Shown here: positions 42,870 to 49,308 of the stretch, in pieces
Numbering within the stretch: position 1 is the first letter of the stretch
How the letters are laid out: each line of letters starts with the position of its first letter
NCBI GenBank assembly: GCA_021848465.1
Contig: JAJZUP010000003.1
Span: forward strand, 186,001 to 250,000
DNA length: 64,000 nt
Origin: Pseudomonadota bacterium
GTDB lineage: Bacteria; Pseudomonadota; Gammaproteobacteria; Burkholderiales; Gallionellaceae
Direction of reading: 5' to 3'
The notes under the pieces: model-generated
Seen by the model: the letters and a program-made list of their open reading frames with translations, nothing else
What the model was told of the DNA's origin: nothing
Databases searched by the model: none
Position numbers and translations under genes: made by a program

Positions 42870-45800
42870 ATGGTTCAGCCTGCGAACCGAGGAAATTCAG
42901 GTAGTCCTGCCATTGAACAATACGCGCGCTTCCCGTTACTGAAAAAACTCGCAACCTACAGCCTGCTGACCATGACGGCCATCGCGGCCCTGCTGATCGT
43001 CCTGTTTCGCAACGACCAGATTTCAGAACACGAACAGCTTGCCGCACAAGACAACCGGGAACGGGCGGCCCACCTGTTGCGCCTGCTGGACGACAAGCTG
43101 ATACGATTGATCGCCTCCAGTTCAACCCTCACCCCGCGAGAATTCCCGGACAATCCGGAAATCCTGCCGTTCCAGAATGAGCTGCAACGCCTGATCGGCC
43201 CCAACATCCTCAAGGTCAAAATCTATAATCAGGCGGGAGTCGCCATTTACTCATCGGCCAGCAAGGAGATCGGCGGCGGCAGCACACACCAGGACTGGCT
43301 GAAAAAAGCCCTGAATGGCACTGCGGTCAGCCAAACCGAAGCGCGTGAAACTTTCGCCGGCAGGCTTGGCGAGATGCACAATATTCATGTCTCGCTGTTG
43401 TACACCCCCATCCAGCATGACGACAAAGTCATCGGCGTGCTGGAAATATATGCCGATGCAACTCCGTTTTTTGCGCGCATCAATGCCAACTCGGTGCGCA
43501 TTGTGGAAATTGTTTTTGCCTGCTTCGCAATCCTGTTTGGCCTGCATTTCCTTGCCGTGTTCCGCACCGACCGCAACCTGCGCGCATGGCAGCAAGCCAT
43601 ACACAACAGCGAGCAAGCCCTCAAGGAGTCGCAGCGGATTGCGCGGCTCGGCAACTATGAACTCGATTTGTCGAGCGGGAAATTCACCGCCTCCGACGCA
43701 CTGGACGAAATACTCGGGATAGACAAGAACTACCCGCATACGCTGGATGGCTGGAGAGCCTTGCTGCATCCCGATGAGCGCCAAGCTGTACAGGACTACC
43801 TGTATCAGGACGTGCTCCCCAAACAAGGCCGGTTCGACCTTGAATACCGCATCATTCGCCACACGGACGGCCAGGAACGCTGGGTGCATGGGCTTGGAAA
43901 GATCGAAACCGATCATTTCGGCGTGCCCACCCTGATGCGCGGGACGTTACAGGATATTACCTCCAGCAAACATTCCCAGTTGCGCATCCAGAATGCCGAG
44001 GCACGCTACCGGACCCTCATGACCAACTCGGTAGATGCGCTATATGTGTGCGACCTGCACGGCAATTTCGTGGAAGTCAGCCAGCAAGCCTGCAGCCAGG
44101 TGGGCTACAGCCAGAATGAGTTGCTGCAACTGAATGTAAAAGACATCCTACCGGAGTTGGACCTGGCGAGCCGCGCCCCTGCCTGGCGCGCACTGGAACC
44201 TGGCAAACCCTACAGCATCACCGGACAGTTCCGCCGCAAGGATGGCAGCCTGTTTCCGGTCGAAGTGCATTTGGCAGCCCTGATGATCAATGATGAAAAA
44301 TTCATGATGGGACTGGCTTGCGACATCAGCGAACGCAAACAGGCGGAAGATCTGGCCAGACTCAGCCAGACCATCATCGAGCAATCGTGCGACGGCTTTT
44401 ACCGGCATGACCTGAGCGGCGTCCTGGTTGATGTCAACCAGGCGTATGCGGATATGCTGGGCTACACCCGCGATGAGTTGATAGGAAAACATATTTCCCA
44501 GATTTCGCTGCTGGCAACCACGCCCGAGTTGGTCTGGGAACGTATCCACATGATCATGCGCAAAGGCACGCTGAAATTCGAATCGCGCCATCGCGCCAAA
44601 AATGGCAGTGCCGTTGACCTTGAAATTTCCGCCATCGCCCTGCCTGCGGCCAGATGCATCTATGCATTCCTGCGCGACATCACTGAACAGCGAAAGGCCG
44701 AGGAAGCCTTGCGCATTGCCGCCGTGACATTCGAAACCCATGAAGGCATCCTGATTACCGATGCCAGATCGAACATCATCCGGGTAAACCGTGCGTTTTG
44801 CGACATTACCGGCTATAGCGCCATTGAGGTACTTGGAAAGAATCCGCGCATCATGAGTTCGGGGCTGCACGATAAGGCGTTCTATATCGAAATGTGGCAG
44901 CAACTGCTGCACGAGGGTACCTGGTCTGGCGAAATCCTGGACAAGCGCAAAAGCGGGCAGATCTATCCGAAGTGGCTCAACATCACCGCGGTCAGGAATG
45001 GGAATAACGAGGTTACCCATTACGTCGCCATATTCAGCGACATCACCGACCGCAAAAAGGCCGAAGAGCAAATTCGCCAGATGGCCTTCTACGACCCGCT
45101 CACCCGCTTGCCCAACCGGCGCCTGCTCATGGACCGGCTGCAGGTTGCGCTTTCCGTCTCGGCGCGCCGCGACGACTATGGCGCGATCCTGTTCATCGAT
45201 CTCGACCGTTTCAAAATCCTGAACGATACACTGGGCCACGAATACGGCGACCTGCTGCTGAAAGAGGTTGCCGAAAGACTGCGCGCCAGCGTACGCGAGA
45301 TGGACACAGTAGCGCGGTTTGGCGGCGACGAGTTTGTCGTTCTGCTGGAGGGCGTCAGCACCGTACGTGATGAGGCCCTGCACAAGGTTTCCACCGTCGC
45401 AGAAAAAATCCGTACTGCGCTGGCATCCACATACTGCCTGAGGGAGCACGAGCACCATTGCTCGCCCAGTATCGGCGTCAGCATGTACCACGGCAACGAT
45501 GCCACATTGGAAATATTGCTCGAGCATGCAGACATGGCGATGTACCAGGCCAAGGGCAGTGGCCGCAATGCGGTGTGTTTCTTCGACCCCGAGATGCAGC
45601 GTAACGTCGCCTTGCGTGAATCACTGGAAAGCGACCTCGGCCGCGCCATTGAATTGCAGCAATTCGTTTTGCATTACCAGATACAGGTTGACCAGCATAA
45701 CCAACCGGTTGGCGCTGAGGCATTCCTGCGCTGGATGCATCCCACGCACGGAACCCTCATGCCGGGACAATTCCTGCCTTTGGCTGAGGCCAGTTCGCTA

Positions 45801-46379
45801 ATCTTCAGTATCGGTCGCTGGGTCCTCGATACGGCCTGCAGGCAATTGTCGTCCTGGCACAGCAACCCTAAAACCAGCATGCTGATTTTGACAATCAATA
45901 TCAGCGCAAAACATTTTGAACGAGCCGACTTCGTAAGCGATGTTTCTGCTGCCCTCCTGCGCTATGCGATTACACCAGCCAGCCTGAAACTGGAACTCTC
46001 CGAAAAAATCGTGCTGGGCAATTCAGATGAGTCCCTCAAGAAAATTGAAGCCCTCAAAGCGCTGGGAGTAAAGCTGTCGATGGATAATTTTTCCACCATG
46101 TACTCATCCCTTTCCTACCTTAAGCAGTTATCGCAAGACCAACTCAAGATCCATCAGGAATTTGTGCACGGCATCTCATCAGATGGCAACGATGAACAGT
46201 TGATCCGCACCGTGGTCAGCCTGGCAAGATCAATGGATCTCAACGTCTTTGCCGAAGGCGTGGAGACCCGCGAGCAATTCAACTTCCTGAGGGCGCAGGA
46301 ATGTGACACGTACCAGGGCTACCTGATCGGCAAGCCGGTAGCAATTGATGAGTTCGACGAGTTGCTGAAAAAACTGTAA
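42870..46379 (+). CDS. Membrane PAS-GGDEF-EAL protein with degenerate EAL domain
   Basis: 1169 residues. TM helices at about 29-46 and 209-231 enclose a periplasmic sensor. Four PAS/PAC units follow (about 250-365, 375-492, 498-607, 615-730). The GGDEF domain (740-905) has intact GGDEF (818-822) and an inhibitory I-site RxxD (REMD, 809-812), so diguanylate cyclase activity is likely. The EAL domain (930-1169) keeps E950 (reading EAF), N1010, E1129 and Q1149. DDFG is changed to DNFS (1072-1075) and LKID to LKIH (H1095), removing two metal-coordinating positions, so hydrolysis of c-di-GMP is doubtful. Confidence 0.93.
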   Translation: MVQPANRGNSGSPAIEQYARFPLLKKLATYSLLTMTAIAALLIVLFRNDQISEHEQLAAQDNRERAAHLLRLLDDKLIRLIASSSTLTPREFPDNPEILPFQNELQRLIGPNILKVKIYNQAGVAIYSSASKEIGGGSTHQDWLKKALNGTAVSQTEARETFAGRLGEMHNIHVSLLYTPIQHDDKVIGVLEIYADATPFFARINANSVRIVEIVFACFAILFGLHFLAVFRTDRNLRAWQQAIHNSEQALKESQRIARLGNYELDLSSGKFTASDALDEILGIDKNYPHTLDGWRALLHPDERQAVQDYLYQDVLPKQGRFDLEYRIIRHTDGQERWVHGLGKIETDHFGVPTLMRGTLQDITSSKHSQLRIQNAEARYRTLMTNSVDALYVCDLHGNFVEVSQQACSQVGYSQNELLQLNVKDILPELDLASRAPAWRALEPGKPYSITGQFRRKDGSLFPVEVHLAALMINDEKFMMGLACDISERKQAEDLARLSQTIIEQSCDGFYRHDLSGVLVDVNQAYADMLGYTRDELIGKHISQISLLATTPELVWERIHMIMRKGTLKFESRHRAKNGSAVDLEISAIALPAARCIYAFLRDITEQRKAEEALRIAAVTFETHEGILITDARSNIIRVNRAFCDITGYSAIEVLGKNPRIMSSGLHDKAFYIEMWQQLLHEGTWSGEILDKRKSGQIYPKWLNITAVRNGNNEVTHYVAIFSDITDRKKAEEQIRQMAFYDPLTRLPNRRLLMDRLQVALSVSARRDDYGAILFIDLDRFKILNDTLGHEYGDLLLKEVAERLRASVREMDTVARFGGDEFVVLLEGVSTVRDEALHKVSTVAEKIRTALASTYCLREHEHHCSPSIGVSMYHGNDATLEILLEHADMAMYQAKGSGRNAVCFFDPEMQRNVALRESLESDLGRAIELQQFVLHYQIQVDQHNQPVGAEAFLRWMHPTHGTLMPGQFLPLAEASSLIFSIGRWVLDTACRQLSSWHSNPKTSMLILTINISAKHFERADFVSDVSAALLRYAITPASLKLELSEKIVLGNSDESLKKIEALKALGVKLSMDNFSTMYSSLSYLKQLSQDQLKIHQEFVHGISSDGNDEQLIRTVVSLARSMDLNVFAEGVETREQFNFLRAQECDTYQGYLIGKPVAIDEFDELLKKL

Positions 46380-46389
46380 GCCCACACCA

Positions 46390-46812
46390 CTACGGTTTGG
46401 GAATAATGATCGGTTTCTTGTACTGCCAATCATTGTTGTACATGGAAGCTTCGCTTTCCTTGACGATCTTGTTGCGGAAAGCGCCGTCGATGCGCAGCCA
46501 ACGCTCGCGCAATTCATCAGCCACCCCTGACTCGCGTAACGCCTCGTCGAGCAGTCCCTCTCGAATATCGAACAGCTCCGGGGTGATATACATCGTTTCA
46601 TGGACCAAGCGGATTTCCTTGCCCGGATAAGATTCCGGGCTCCCCATCTTGTCCGCCATGAAACTGGTCTGCCGGTCCTCGATCACCTGCTGGTCATGCC
46701 CGGCAAAAAATTTTCCCAGCCAAGGATGCGCGTAAACCTTGTCATAAAAGATTTTATGAACCTGCTGCAATGTCGGCCATCCGCCGACCTGTTCAAACAA
46801 TGTCGTGCTCAT
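46390..46812 (-). CDS. Globin-like protein (truncated haemoglobin superfamily)
   Basis: 140 residues from ATG 46812, preceded by GGGAGG. The pattern TLFEQVGGWPTLQQVHKIFYDKVYAHPWLGKFF fits the A-B-CE region of bacterial globins, and LVHETMYITPELFDIREGLL carries the probable proximal His. The tail is longer than in minimal truncated globins (WQYKKPIIIPKP). Oxygen or NO chemistry is likely but unproven. Divergent from the tandem globin gene across a 219-base AT-rich region. Confidence 0.8.
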   Translation of the reverse strand: MSTTLFEQVGGWPTLQQVHKIFYDKVYAHPWLGKFFAGHDQQVIEDRQTSFMADKMGSPESYPGKEIRLVHETMYITPELFDIREGLLDEALRESGVADELRERWLRIDGAFRNKIVKESEASMYNNDWQYKKPIIIPKP

Positions 46813-46913: not shown

Positions 46914-46950
46914 AAACAAAATATGTTTTCAATATATATGTTTTGTAAAA
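46914..46950. promoter_or_regulatory. AT-rich repeat region between the divergent globin genes
   Basis: ATATGTTTT occurs twice (46921-46929, 46936-46944), and ACAAAA / TTTTGT form an outer inverted pair, all within the only long AT-rich stretch of this gap. The position between two globin genes suggests a shared operator. The sequence does not clearly match a known NsrR, FNR or NorR site. Confidence 0.4.
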
Positions 46951-47031
46951 TCTGCTCTATCATGCGCCTCAGCCAGCGTGATAGGAATCACTCAATGGCG
47001 GCTTAATCAAACAACTCAAGGAGGAATCGGT

Positions 47032-47853
47032 ATGGTTTTATTATTTGTTTTGTCGCCCCTCGTAATTCTGGGACTCATGATCTTGTTCGGCGGCAAAGGC
47101 GAGCCTCCCAAATCTCTGTATGAAAAGCTCGGTGGCGAAGCTGCCGTCAACGCTGCCGTGGATATTTTCTACCGCAAGGTACTGAAGGATAACCGTATCA
47201 AGCACTTCTTCGACGGCGTGGACATGGCCCGTCAGGCAGCCAAGCAGAAGGCCTTCCTGACCATGGCATTCGGCGGCCCGAACAGCTACACCGGCGAAGA
47301 CATGCGCAAAGGCCATGCACACCTGGTGGCACGCGGCCTGAACGACTCCCACTTCGACGCCGTGATGGAAAACCTCGGTGCCACATTGAAAGAGCTGAAT
47401 GTTCCCGGCCACCTGATCGAGCAATGCGCTGCCATCGCTGAAAGCGTTCGCAACGACGTGCTCGGCCGCCCAGCCGGCAGCAAGGCTCCGCAGTCCCTGT
47501 ATGACAAACTGGGTGGCGAAGCTGCCGTCAACGCTGCCGTGGATATTTTCTACCGCAAGGTGTTGAAGGACGACCGCATCAAGCATTTCTTCGACGGCGT
47601 GGACATGGCCCGTCAGGCAGCCAAGCAGAAGGCCTTCCTGACCGTGGCATTCGGCGGCCCGAACAATTACAGCGGCGAAGACATGCGTAAAGGCCACGCA
47701 CACCTGGTGGCACGCGGCCTGAACGACTCCCACTTCGACGCCGTGATGGAAAACCTCGGCGCCACACTGAAGGAACTGAATGTCCCCGGCGACCTGATCG
47801 CCCAGTGCGCCGCGATTGCCGAGAGCACCCGCAAAGACGTGCTCGGCAAATAA
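47032..47853 (+). CDS. Membrane-anchored tandem group 1 truncated haemoglobin
   Basis: 273 residues from ATG 47032, with AAGGAGG upstream (the frame is open from 46870, but without an SD). An N-terminal hydrophobic anchor (MVLLFVLSPLVILGLMILFGG in shorter form, residues 1-21) is followed by two near-identical TrHb1 domains (about 25-147 and 152-273). Each has the B-helix DIFYRKVLKD with the distal Tyr, the E-helix ARQAAKQKAFLT and the F-helix KGHAHLVARGLNDSHFD with the proximal His. The DNA of the two units is offset by exactly 381 bases and more than 90% identical by eye, so the duplication is recent or homogenised. Probably binds O2 or NO at the inner membrane. Confidence 0.93.
   Translation: MVLLFVLSPLVILGLMILFGGKGEPPKSLYEKLGGEAAVNAAVDIFYRKVLKDNRIKHFFDGVDMARQAAKQKAFLTMAFGGPNSYTGEDMRKGHAHLVARGLNDSHFDAVMENLGATLKELNVPGHLIEQCAAIAESVRNDVLGRPAGSKAPQSLYDKLGGEAAVNAAVDIFYRKVLKDDRIKHFFDGVDMARQAAKQKAFLTVAFGGPNNYSGEDMRKGHAHLVARGLNDSHFDAVMENLGATLKELNVPGDLIAQCAAIAESTRKDVLGK
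47116..47853 (+). repeat. Tandem 381-base duplication inside the globin gene
   Basis: Unit 1 (about 47116-47460) and unit 2 (about 47497-47850) match base by base with a 381-base (127-codon) offset, with long identical runs through the B to G helices. Differences are mostly synonymous. Confidence 0.9.
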
Positions 47854-47877
47854 GTTTCGCAGTTCGCAGCAGCAATC

Positions 47878-47907
47878 CCTCTCCATCCCGCTCGGAGAGG
47901 GATTTTT
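47878..47907 (+). terminator. Terminator after the tandem globin
   Basis: Arms CCCTCTCC / GGAGAGGG followed by ATTTTTTT, 25 bases after the stop. It also belongs to the family of short CCTCTCC palindromes seen at 28559. Confidence 0.88.
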
Positions 47908-49308
47908 TTATCTGCACTGCTGTGCCAGAAACTCGAATATCAGTTCATCGTCGCAATGTGCGACATTGAAGCGCATCCATGGTGATGCTTCCTGATGTGG
48001 CCGGAAAATATTCCCGGGCGCAAGCATGATGCCCTGGCGCGCAGCCCGGCTTGCCAATTCGGCAGTGTCTTCGAGCCCCGGAAAACGGGCCCAGACAAAC
48101 ATCCCGCCTTGCGGCTCGCAATGCAATTCAAAACCCAGCTGTTCCAGCCTCCCGATGGTGCGTTCGCGTGCTGCCTGTAATCTGCCGCGCAGTCGTTCAA
48201 GATGCTTGCGGTAATGACCATCGGTAAGCAGCTGGTACATCAGGCGCTCGCTGACTTCCGAGGTGGTCAGTCCGGTCAGCAGTTTGACGTCGGACAGGTG
48301 AGCCACCAAATCGCGCTTGCATGTCAGATAGCCGACCCGCAGGCTGGCGGACACCGTCTTTGAAAAACTGCTGACGTAAATTACGCGGTTCAATTGATCC
48401 AGCGTCGCGAGCCGCGTGACCGGCGCAGGATGAAAGTCTCCATAAATATCATCCTCCACCAGCATCAGGTCGTATTTCTCGGCCAGTTGCAGCATGCGGT
48501 ACGCCACCGGTTGGCTGATGCTGGCTCCGGTAGGGTTATGCAAAATGGAATTGGTGAAAAACAGTTTTGGCCGATGCTGCTGGAGCAGTTGCTCCATGAT
48601 CTGCACATCGGGACCATCCGCATTCCACGGCACGCCGACGATTTTTGCCCCGAATGATTTGAGCCCGCCAAACAGGATCAGGTAACCCGGATCATCCACC
48701 AGCACGGCATCGCCGGGGCGCACAAAATAACGGGTGACCAAATCCAGCGCATGGGTAACGCCGGCCGTCAGGATGATCTGGCCGGTTTCGGCCGTGATCC
48801 CTATCCCGCCCAGTTTGCTTTGCAGCAGATCGCGCAATGGACGATAGCCATCAGGGGTGCCATAAGCGGTCAGGAACTCGCCGTCCTTCAACGCCAGGGT
48901 GCGCAGGCTCTTCTTGATCCCGGCGGACTCCATCCAGGCTGCCGGCAGCCACCACGCCCCCGGCATTGTTTTGCTGGCGCGATCCTCCAGCGAATTGCGC
49001 AGCAGCCAGACCACATCCACGGCGCTATCCAGACGCACCGAGCTGTCGCCCTCGCCAAGTAATTTAGGGCGCGATGAAACGTAAAAACCCGATCCCTGCC
49101 GCGATTGCAGGTAGCCCATCGCCACCAACCGATCGTACGCCCCCACCACGGTAAACCGGCTTACCCCATGACTCAGCGCAAACGAGCGGATCGAGGGCAT
49201 GCGCGTCCCGGCACGAATCGCGCGATCATCAATCAACTTTTTGATTGCGCGCGCGATCTGTTCGACCAGCGGCACGCTGTCATGTGCATCCAGGCTAATT
49301 ATTGTCAT
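47908..49308 (-). CDS. MocR/GntR-type regulator with PLP aminotransferase domain
   Basis: 466 residues. The N-terminal GntR winged helix (about 10-75) has IRAGTRMPSIRSFALSHGVS and VGAYDRLVAMGYLQSRQGSGFYV. A fold-type I aminotransferase domain (about 105-466) has the PLP lysine in YVSSFSKTVSASLRVGYL and LVDDPGYLILFGGLKSFGAK. MocR proteins sense PLP or amino-acid derivatives and often control an adjacent divergent gene, here the membrane-protein operon at 49421. Confidence 0.93.
   Translation of the reverse strand: MTIISLDAHDSVPLVEQIARAIKKLIDDRAIRAGTRMPSIRSFALSHGVSRFTVVGAYDRLVAMGYLQSRQGSGFYVSSRPKLLGEGDSSVRLDSAVDVVWLLRNSLEDRASKTMPGAWWLPAAWMESAGIKKSLRTLALKDGEFLTAYGTPDGYRPLRDLLQSKLGGIGITAETGQIILTAGVTHALDLVTRYFVRPGDAVLVDDPGYLILFGGLKSFGAKIVGVPWNADGPDVQIMEQLLQQHRPKLFFTNSILHNPTGASISQPVAYRMLQLAEKYDLMLVEDDIYGDFHPAPVTRLATLDQLNRVIYVSSFSKTVSASLRVGYLTCKRDLVAHLSDVKLLTGLTTSEVSERLMYQLLTDGHYRKHLERLRGRLQAARERTIGRLEQLGFELHCEPQGGMFVWARFPGLEDTAELASRAARQGIMLAPGNIFRPHQEASPWMRFNVAHCDDELIFEFLAQQCR

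Follow-up and report, generated by a model that had tools for sequence, protein, structure and literature searches.

The closest described system is that of Legionella pneumophila, in which a GlbN/ferredoxin-reductase operon was reported to be under the control of NsrR (Gardner 2012; PMC3820574); the soluble module of a group 1 truncated haemoglobin (trHb1) and a reductase is thus already known, as far as the accessible part of that report goes. Chlamydomonas TrHb1-1 has been reported to be an efficient NO dioxygenase, and a Lys was proposed to be the sixth ligand of its iron (PMC4439042). Membrane location is likewise on record for Nostoc GlbN, which is a peripheral membrane protein, M. tuberculosis HbO and Vitreoscilla Hb, although these bacterial globins, according to the accessible part of the source, are associated with the membrane without the integral anchor or the tandem domains of the protein described here (PMC3820574). 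Emerson (2013) counted the trHbN genes of Sideroxydans ES-1 and Mariprofundus PV-1 and regarded the trHbN of ES-1 as likelier to be part of a terminal oxidase than to serve NO detoxification (PMC3770913). These organisms belong to the same host groups as the genes treated below and carry several trHbN per genome, whereas an anchor, tandem domains and NsrR control are not mentioned in the part of that account available to us (PMC3770913). No description of an anchored or tandem trHb1 was found in the literature at the level of titles and abstract openings, most subscription journals lying outside this scope.

The 64,000-nucleotide stretch of a Gallionellaceae genome analysed in this study (the window) carries, at 47032..47853 (+), a gene for an anchored double truncated haemoglobin of 273 amino acids, as defined by the open reading frame, its translation and Pfam PF01152. 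The initial annotation had proposed an open reading frame with two globin domains at this place; its coordinates were right, and PF01152 matched the protein in two stretches with 129 bits (cut-off, 21), each domain alone scoring 66 bits in the genome search. The protein starts with MVLLFVLSPLVILGLMILFGG, after which two group 1 truncated globins follow. A hydrophobic leader (47032..47094, +; residues 1-21), predicted from Kyte-Doolittle values, charges and low pLDDT to be an N-out/C-in anchor, precedes globin domain 1 (47110..47466, +; residues 27-145), whose best solved relatives are cyanoglobin GlbN, and a linker (47467..47490, +; residues 146-153, from the domain limits) leads to globin domain 2 (47491..47847, +; residues 154-272), which is 92% identical to domain 1 at the protein level; both domains were delimited by hmmsearch. 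A Shine-Dalgarno-like ribosome binding site, AAGGAGG, was recognised by eye just 5' of the ATG at 47032 (47018..47024, +), as was a likely intrinsic terminator, AATCCCTCTCC ... GGAGAGGGATT with a T run (47874..47909, +), whose loop exceeds the limit of the terminator scan, so that the hairpin is absent from the scan. With a ribosome binding site of its own and a terminator-like hairpin downstream, the gene is probably monocistronic.

A single-domain truncated haemoglobin gene, P0002, lies divergently at 46390..46812 (-) (PF01152, 54 bits; best solved relatives, HbN). It may share with the anchored gene both the intergenic region and the NsrR-type operator described below. A diverged trHb gene is the divergent neighbour at one other anchored locus (L061) as well. 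Upstream of the globin pair, 42870-46379 (+) encodes a 1169-residue PAS-GGDEF-EAL protein with several PAS domains; homologues were also seen near the anchored globin genes L034, L065 and L066, a recurrence that could be due to chance since such proteins are common. Elsewhere in the same genome, a further PF01152 globin (L001, C6:45669-46022) gave the genome's best family match, 129 bits, and is too distant to appear in the search with the anchored protein (P0001).

Judging from the alignment, both haem pockets are intact. In 24/24 two-domain proteins aligned, H95/H222, F46-Y47/F173-Y174, Q68/Q195, Q72/Q199 and K71/K198 were invariant, so that each half has, as judged by alignment to 2hz2, the proximal His F8, the Phe-Tyr pair at B9-B10, two distal Gln and a Lys. 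Among solved structures, the closest in sequence are those of cyanobacterial GlbN (130 bits), namely the Synechocystis cyanoglobin (2hz2, 1s69, 1mwb). Unlike this single soluble domain, each window globin has a Lys at the position of the distal His46 and no counterpart of His117. The Tyr-Gln-Lys set at 47/68/71 (spacings of 21 and 3) has the spacing of Tyr29/Gln50/Lys53 in Chlamydomonas TrHb1-1, a protein that is, unlike that of the window, single-domain and eukaryotic (PMC4439042). The AlphaFold2 model had a mean pLDDT of 84.6, with both domains mostly above 85 and leader residues 1-23 below 50; its pTM of 0.54 means that the relative placement of the two domains is not fixed by the model. 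When Foldseek was run with this model, the top 30 matches were all group 1 trHb with the 2-on-2 fold (TM-score on the target up to 0.93), the first being a Tetrahymena trHb followed by Chlamydomonas THB1/Cr-TrHb1-1 (6cii, 4xdi; 0.91 on the target). The initial assignment to group 1 truncated globins is therefore borne out by PF01152 in both domains, by the pockets and by the fold. The domain search found no output domain fused to the globins, and the protein has no FAD/NAD reductase domain such as defines a flavohaemoglobin (Hmp).

Within the gene, a direct repeat of 300 nt (92%) occurs at a spacing of 381 nt, and the two domains align without gaps at the exact 381-base offset that had been noted initially. 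They differ at 37/360 nucleotides and 10/120 residues; of the 37 differences, 22 fall in codons that encode the same residue in both domains and the other 15 in codons that do not (dN, 0.043; dS, about 0.38-0.39), so the earlier description of nearly identical domains with mostly silent differences was fair. The longest identical run was 62 against 37 expected (p 0.019), a weak signal of clustered differences. Tandem repeats are error-prone in assembly, and the host assembly is incomplete and at contig level; nevertheless, the doubling of a single globin unit by mis-assembly is extremely unlikely because the units differ at those 37 sites and the same architecture occurs in independent assemblies of other organisms (complete in L007/L062 and L034, ending at a contig edge in L061/L114), where the homology search suggested by the initial annotation detected it. 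As for the leader, the N-terminal 19 residues have a mean Kyte-Doolittle value of 2.88. Among 39 transmembrane (TM) leaders, Lys or Arg precedes the hydrophobic core in 0/39 and occurs within 15 residues after it in 38/39, and the net charge after the core compared with that before it is higher in 29, equal in 9 and lower in 1. Under the positive-inside rule, and with a Sec signal peptide needing a positive n-region, these charges favour insertion of the TM leaders in the N-out/C-in orientation, which would leave the globins in the cytoplasm. The window leader is among the 9 with equal charge (one Lys and one Glu after the core, no Lys or Arg before it; net 0 on each side), so that its predicted orientation comes mainly from its homologues. 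If the leader were instead a signal peptide, the globins would act in the periplasm, as the hydrophobic N-terminus and the AxA-like triplets close to the core in 9/39 leaders might suggest; the window leader itself, however, has neither a positive n-region nor an AxA, and the charge pattern of the set runs the other way. Export is thus very unlikely, and the leader appears to be a membrane anchor rather than a cleaved signal peptide, as had been annotated.

Relatives were sought in genome contigs, of which scan the best 80 of 396 were taken. In the host family, 49/158 genomes had any match, and 10/158 had a match with E <1e-60 that included the leader (query start no later than residue 3). Three of these 10 were two-domain genes: that of the genome studied, G009 and G148, the last ending at a contig edge. 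In the class sample of 369 genomes, six others gave a full two-domain match, and G477 and G372 were two-domain by domain search; in the phylum sample (398 genomes), two others were two-domain (G634 and G747). Of 158 distinct globin genes from the loci, a script classified 33 as single-domain TM, 7 as multi-domain TM and 22 as multi-domain with a short leader of the MF..L.KLF.GG type, four of them three-domain; a further 4 multi-domain genes fell into no class, in the case of L039 at least only because its leader escaped the pattern. L016, called single-domain TM by the script, was dropped from the TM counts since its hydrophobic stretch lies upstream of where an operon-type soluble gene probably starts. 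TM-trHb or TM-trHb-trHb genes were thus found in further Gallionellaceae, Zetaproteobacteria and a single Nitrospirae MAG, and two- or three-domain genes with the other, short leader in Gammaproteobacteria. The leaders are of different kinds: those of Gallionellaceae form a TM helix that contains Pro, Zetaproteobacteria and Nitrospirae each have a TM helix of a type of their own, and Gammaproteobacteria have a short segment of the MFxxLxKLFxGG type. An amphipathic helix, by which the gammaproteobacterial leaders might bind the membrane, was considered and rejected, as the hydrophobic moment exceeded that of composition shuffles (p<0.05) in only 8/15 distinct leaders. Five gammaproteobacterial genes (L035, L042, L048, L050 and L052) were seen to encode three globin domains each, with a recurring interdomain linker of the LAG[YF]TxEEK type.

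The genome also encodes a soluble trHb paralogue (C7:830829-831191, +), 90% identical to domain 2, with a divergent Rrf2 regulator (C7:830257-830646, -) and a reductase (C7:831214-832152, +) that is 46% identical to the Mariprofundus reductase. The best model for the Rrf2 protein was NsrR (151 bits; equivalog cut-off, 182), followed by RirA (121), and that for the reductase was PRK05713, a 2Fe-2S/FAD/NAD ferredoxin reductase; against the reductase part of Hmp, the protein scored 66 bits. Outside the zetaproteobacterial group, a reductase gene lies directly 3' of the soluble gene in 61/67 loci, three of the six counted without one (L077, L078 and L098) having it in an overlapping frame, and a divergent Rrf2 gene was present at 33/65 soluble loci with room. 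In Zetaproteobacteria, the operon order is repressor, soluble trHb, TM-trHb, reductase; TM-single loci with room had a downstream reductase in 18/18 cases and Rrf2 in 19/21, and the TM-double locus of Nitrospirae (L054) had both. The true TM singles of the Gallionellaceae type are unlinked (with room, reductase in 0/8 and Rrf2 in 0/10), and so are the gammaproteobacterial multi-domain genes (0/18 and 0/21). The soluble paralogue has the layout of the Legionella operon, namely a trHb1, NsrR-type control and a reductase of the FNR superfamily, whereas the window gene is unlinked, encodes two domains and has a membrane leader (PMC3820574). Neither a reductase gene adjoining 47032-47853 nor an oxidase gene near it was found at this locus, so the neighbourhood gives no link to an oxidase.

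The promoter of the anchored gene carries a predicted site of the same kind as that of the operon. A palindromic matrix, which reads TAAnATGtATtcngaATaCATnTTA, was fitted to 31 Rrf2/soluble trHb intergenic regions. From 56 candidate promoters, 53 were cut, L112 and L170 being dropped because the start was not recognised and L165 because it was too far; the 31 training promoters were those outside the group treated as Zetaproteobacterial or distant, and included no unlinked anchored gene. An earlier palindrome, derived from fixed 250-nt upstream pieces, was discarded as it resembled Rrf2 coding sequence, and the regions were trimmed to their intergenic part. When the whole window was scanned with the matrix, the top site, AAATATGTTTTCAATATATATGTTT at 46919..46943 (no strand assigned), scored 14.8 bits and the next 4.1. 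This predicted NsrR-type operator, which matches the consensus with 2 mismatches, lies 88 nt before the start codon, within the intergenic region common to the divergent trHb gene; it is weak compared with the training sites (19-32 bits). An NsrR-type site was found before 14/14 unlinked TM-trHb genes of the Gallionellaceae type (dinucleotide shuffle p 0.002-0.038) and before 20/22 gammaproteobacterial multi-domain genes (p at most 0.015; the exceptions were L035 and L041), p-values that are not independent since the genes are related. Set apart from this test were L177-L179, zetaproteobacterial genes inside operons whose upstream sequence is coding (-17.5 to -7.5). Upstream regions of 146 unrelated neighbours, used as a control, had a median of -8.3 bits, five reaching 14.8 and one of them 24.2, and column-permuted matrices gave medians of at most 6.1 or 7.1 versus 16.3 and 14.8 observed. 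Genome-wide, the consensus at up to 2 mismatches occurred at three places, and a reversed control pattern at one. The three places were the promoter of the soluble operon, that of 47032-47853, and C4:305606, a site of no more than 6.8 bits located within or next to a gene that was recognised by eye as coaE-like. The published NsrR target of Salmonella hmp, AAGATGCATTTGATATACATCAT (PMC10783083), is close to TAAnATGtATtcngaATaCATnTTA and scored 22.5 of a possible 31.6 with the inner 23 columns of the fitted matrix. An FNR/CRP-type site was also considered and rejected: TTGATNNNNATCAA at 2 mismatches had 28 matches in the window, including GTGATAGGAATCAC at 46978, against 20.75 expected by chance.

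Based on these results, the product of 47032-47853 is probably an NsrR-regulated, membrane-tethered trHb1 NO dioxygenase with two haems, fed by a shared reductase. The promoter site of the NO-response type, as in the known operon, points to NO scavenging at the membrane by a protein whose kind has been little described and recurs in other iron and sulfur bacteria. In the mechanism we propose, the NsrR-like Rrf2 repressor encoded beside the soluble paralogue would bind and repress both globin loci; NO crossing the membrane would inactivate the Fe-S repressor, which would be released so that both loci are expressed. With its leader in the N-out/C-in orientation, the protein would hold both globins in the cytoplasm just beneath the inner membrane, where hydrophobic NO would enter and where oxidases and Fe-S enzymes would be exposed. 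The oxygenated haem pair would then turn NO and O2 into nitrate at the membrane, protecting the respiratory chain, and the electron donor that returns the ferric haem to the ferrous state would be the 2Fe-2S/FAD/NAD reductase encoded in the soluble operon. Against this reading stand the weak operator, the absence of an adjoining reductase and the NsrR model score below its cut-off. The source of the NO may be neighbouring organisms, or nitrite and Fe(II), which can make NO abiotically; an internal source is not evident, since neither NirS, in a genome that is 85.79% complete, nor a full-length NorB among its COX1-family matches was recognised. In the same genome, Hmp matches cover the reductase part only, and no Hmp globin part was found. 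The COX1-family matches number three, one being cbb3-like (by eye) and two being short frames of 166-168 residues (L202, 1438-1938; L203, 1420-1926) that match only the C-terminal COX1/CcoN part. One of these short frames adjoins a small membrane c-type cytochrome.

Microaerophilic iron oxidizers are known from the host family and from Zetaproteobacteria, and in a microaerophile the protein could instead be a tethered high-affinity store or shuttle of O2 feeding a cbb3 oxidase. Two haems per protein would raise the capacity, the genome has the cbb3-like subunit, and O2 storage by globins has been discussed (PMC3770913). However, the operator and the operon are of the NO-defence type, no oxidase gene is adjacent, and the polar distal pocket (Tyr/Gln/Gln/Lys) is like that of NO-dioxygenating trHb1, which makes such a role unlikely. 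The initial annotation had named O2 delivery and NO removal as the two candidate functions, and what is seen of the regulation and the operon favours the second; for the anchored/soluble trHb1 family studied, the same evidence, drawn from sequence, argues against a terminal-oxidase role. A different role of the haems at the membrane under nitrosative or redox stress, such as sensing of NO or peroxide, nitrite reduction or peroxidase activity, would be compatible with NsrR-type control, which suits any nitrosative-stress protein, and trHb1 proteins can have several activities. Since the globins are without a fused output domain and the conserved reductase linkage of the family fits catalytic turnover, we consider a function of this kind a rather improbable alternative to NO dioxygenation.

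The history of the domains was examined through silent divergence, a domain tree serving as background only (few columns; 97/190 inner branches with low support). The two window domains lie nearer to each other (dS 0.38) than to the anchored globins of L007 and L061 (1.2-1.7) or to the soluble paralogue of the same genome (1.5-2.5), which indicates either conversion or that the domain was duplicated after those splits. The recent duplication and the continuing conversion proposed initially fit this closeness alike, but a silent divergence of about 0.4 is not that of a very recent event. In a related pair of genomes, sequence comparison gives good support for exchange between anchored and soluble loci that are unlinked. 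L034 and L079 are orthologous anchored loci with the same leader type and the same peptidase neighbour (dS 1.19), and their globin domains differ by dS 0.93-1.0. The L034 domains, however, are separated by only 0.28-0.33 from L074, the soluble globin encoded in their genome; the L079 domain is 0.46 from its soluble counterpart (L105), and the two soluble genes are 0.80 apart. Since anchored and soluble copies within a genome are closer than orthologues between genomes, gene conversion is indicated. Such likeness within a genome is not universal (L065/L077, dS 2.5; L066/L100, dS 4.4).

For the family as a whole, we see an even chance that membrane-attached multi-haem trHb1 proteins are a recurrent class of NsrR-regulated NO dioxygenases, in which one kind of globin came to carry unlike leaders and different domain numbers (one, two or three) in chemolithotrophs while gene conversion has kept the anchored and the soluble copies similar. 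In iron oxidizers, these proteins would then act at the membrane as a shield against NO, in a habitat where nitrite and Fe(II) can yield NO abiotically. If this is true, NO defence would have been relocated to the membrane through different anchors and domain multiplication, and the natural tandem series of one, two and three trHb1 domains would lend itself to the study of haem cooperativity and gene conversion. It would also give a testable function to the trHbN genes of iron oxidizers, which have so far been discussed, in the accessible part of the source, as O2 stores or parts of oxidases (PMC3770913).
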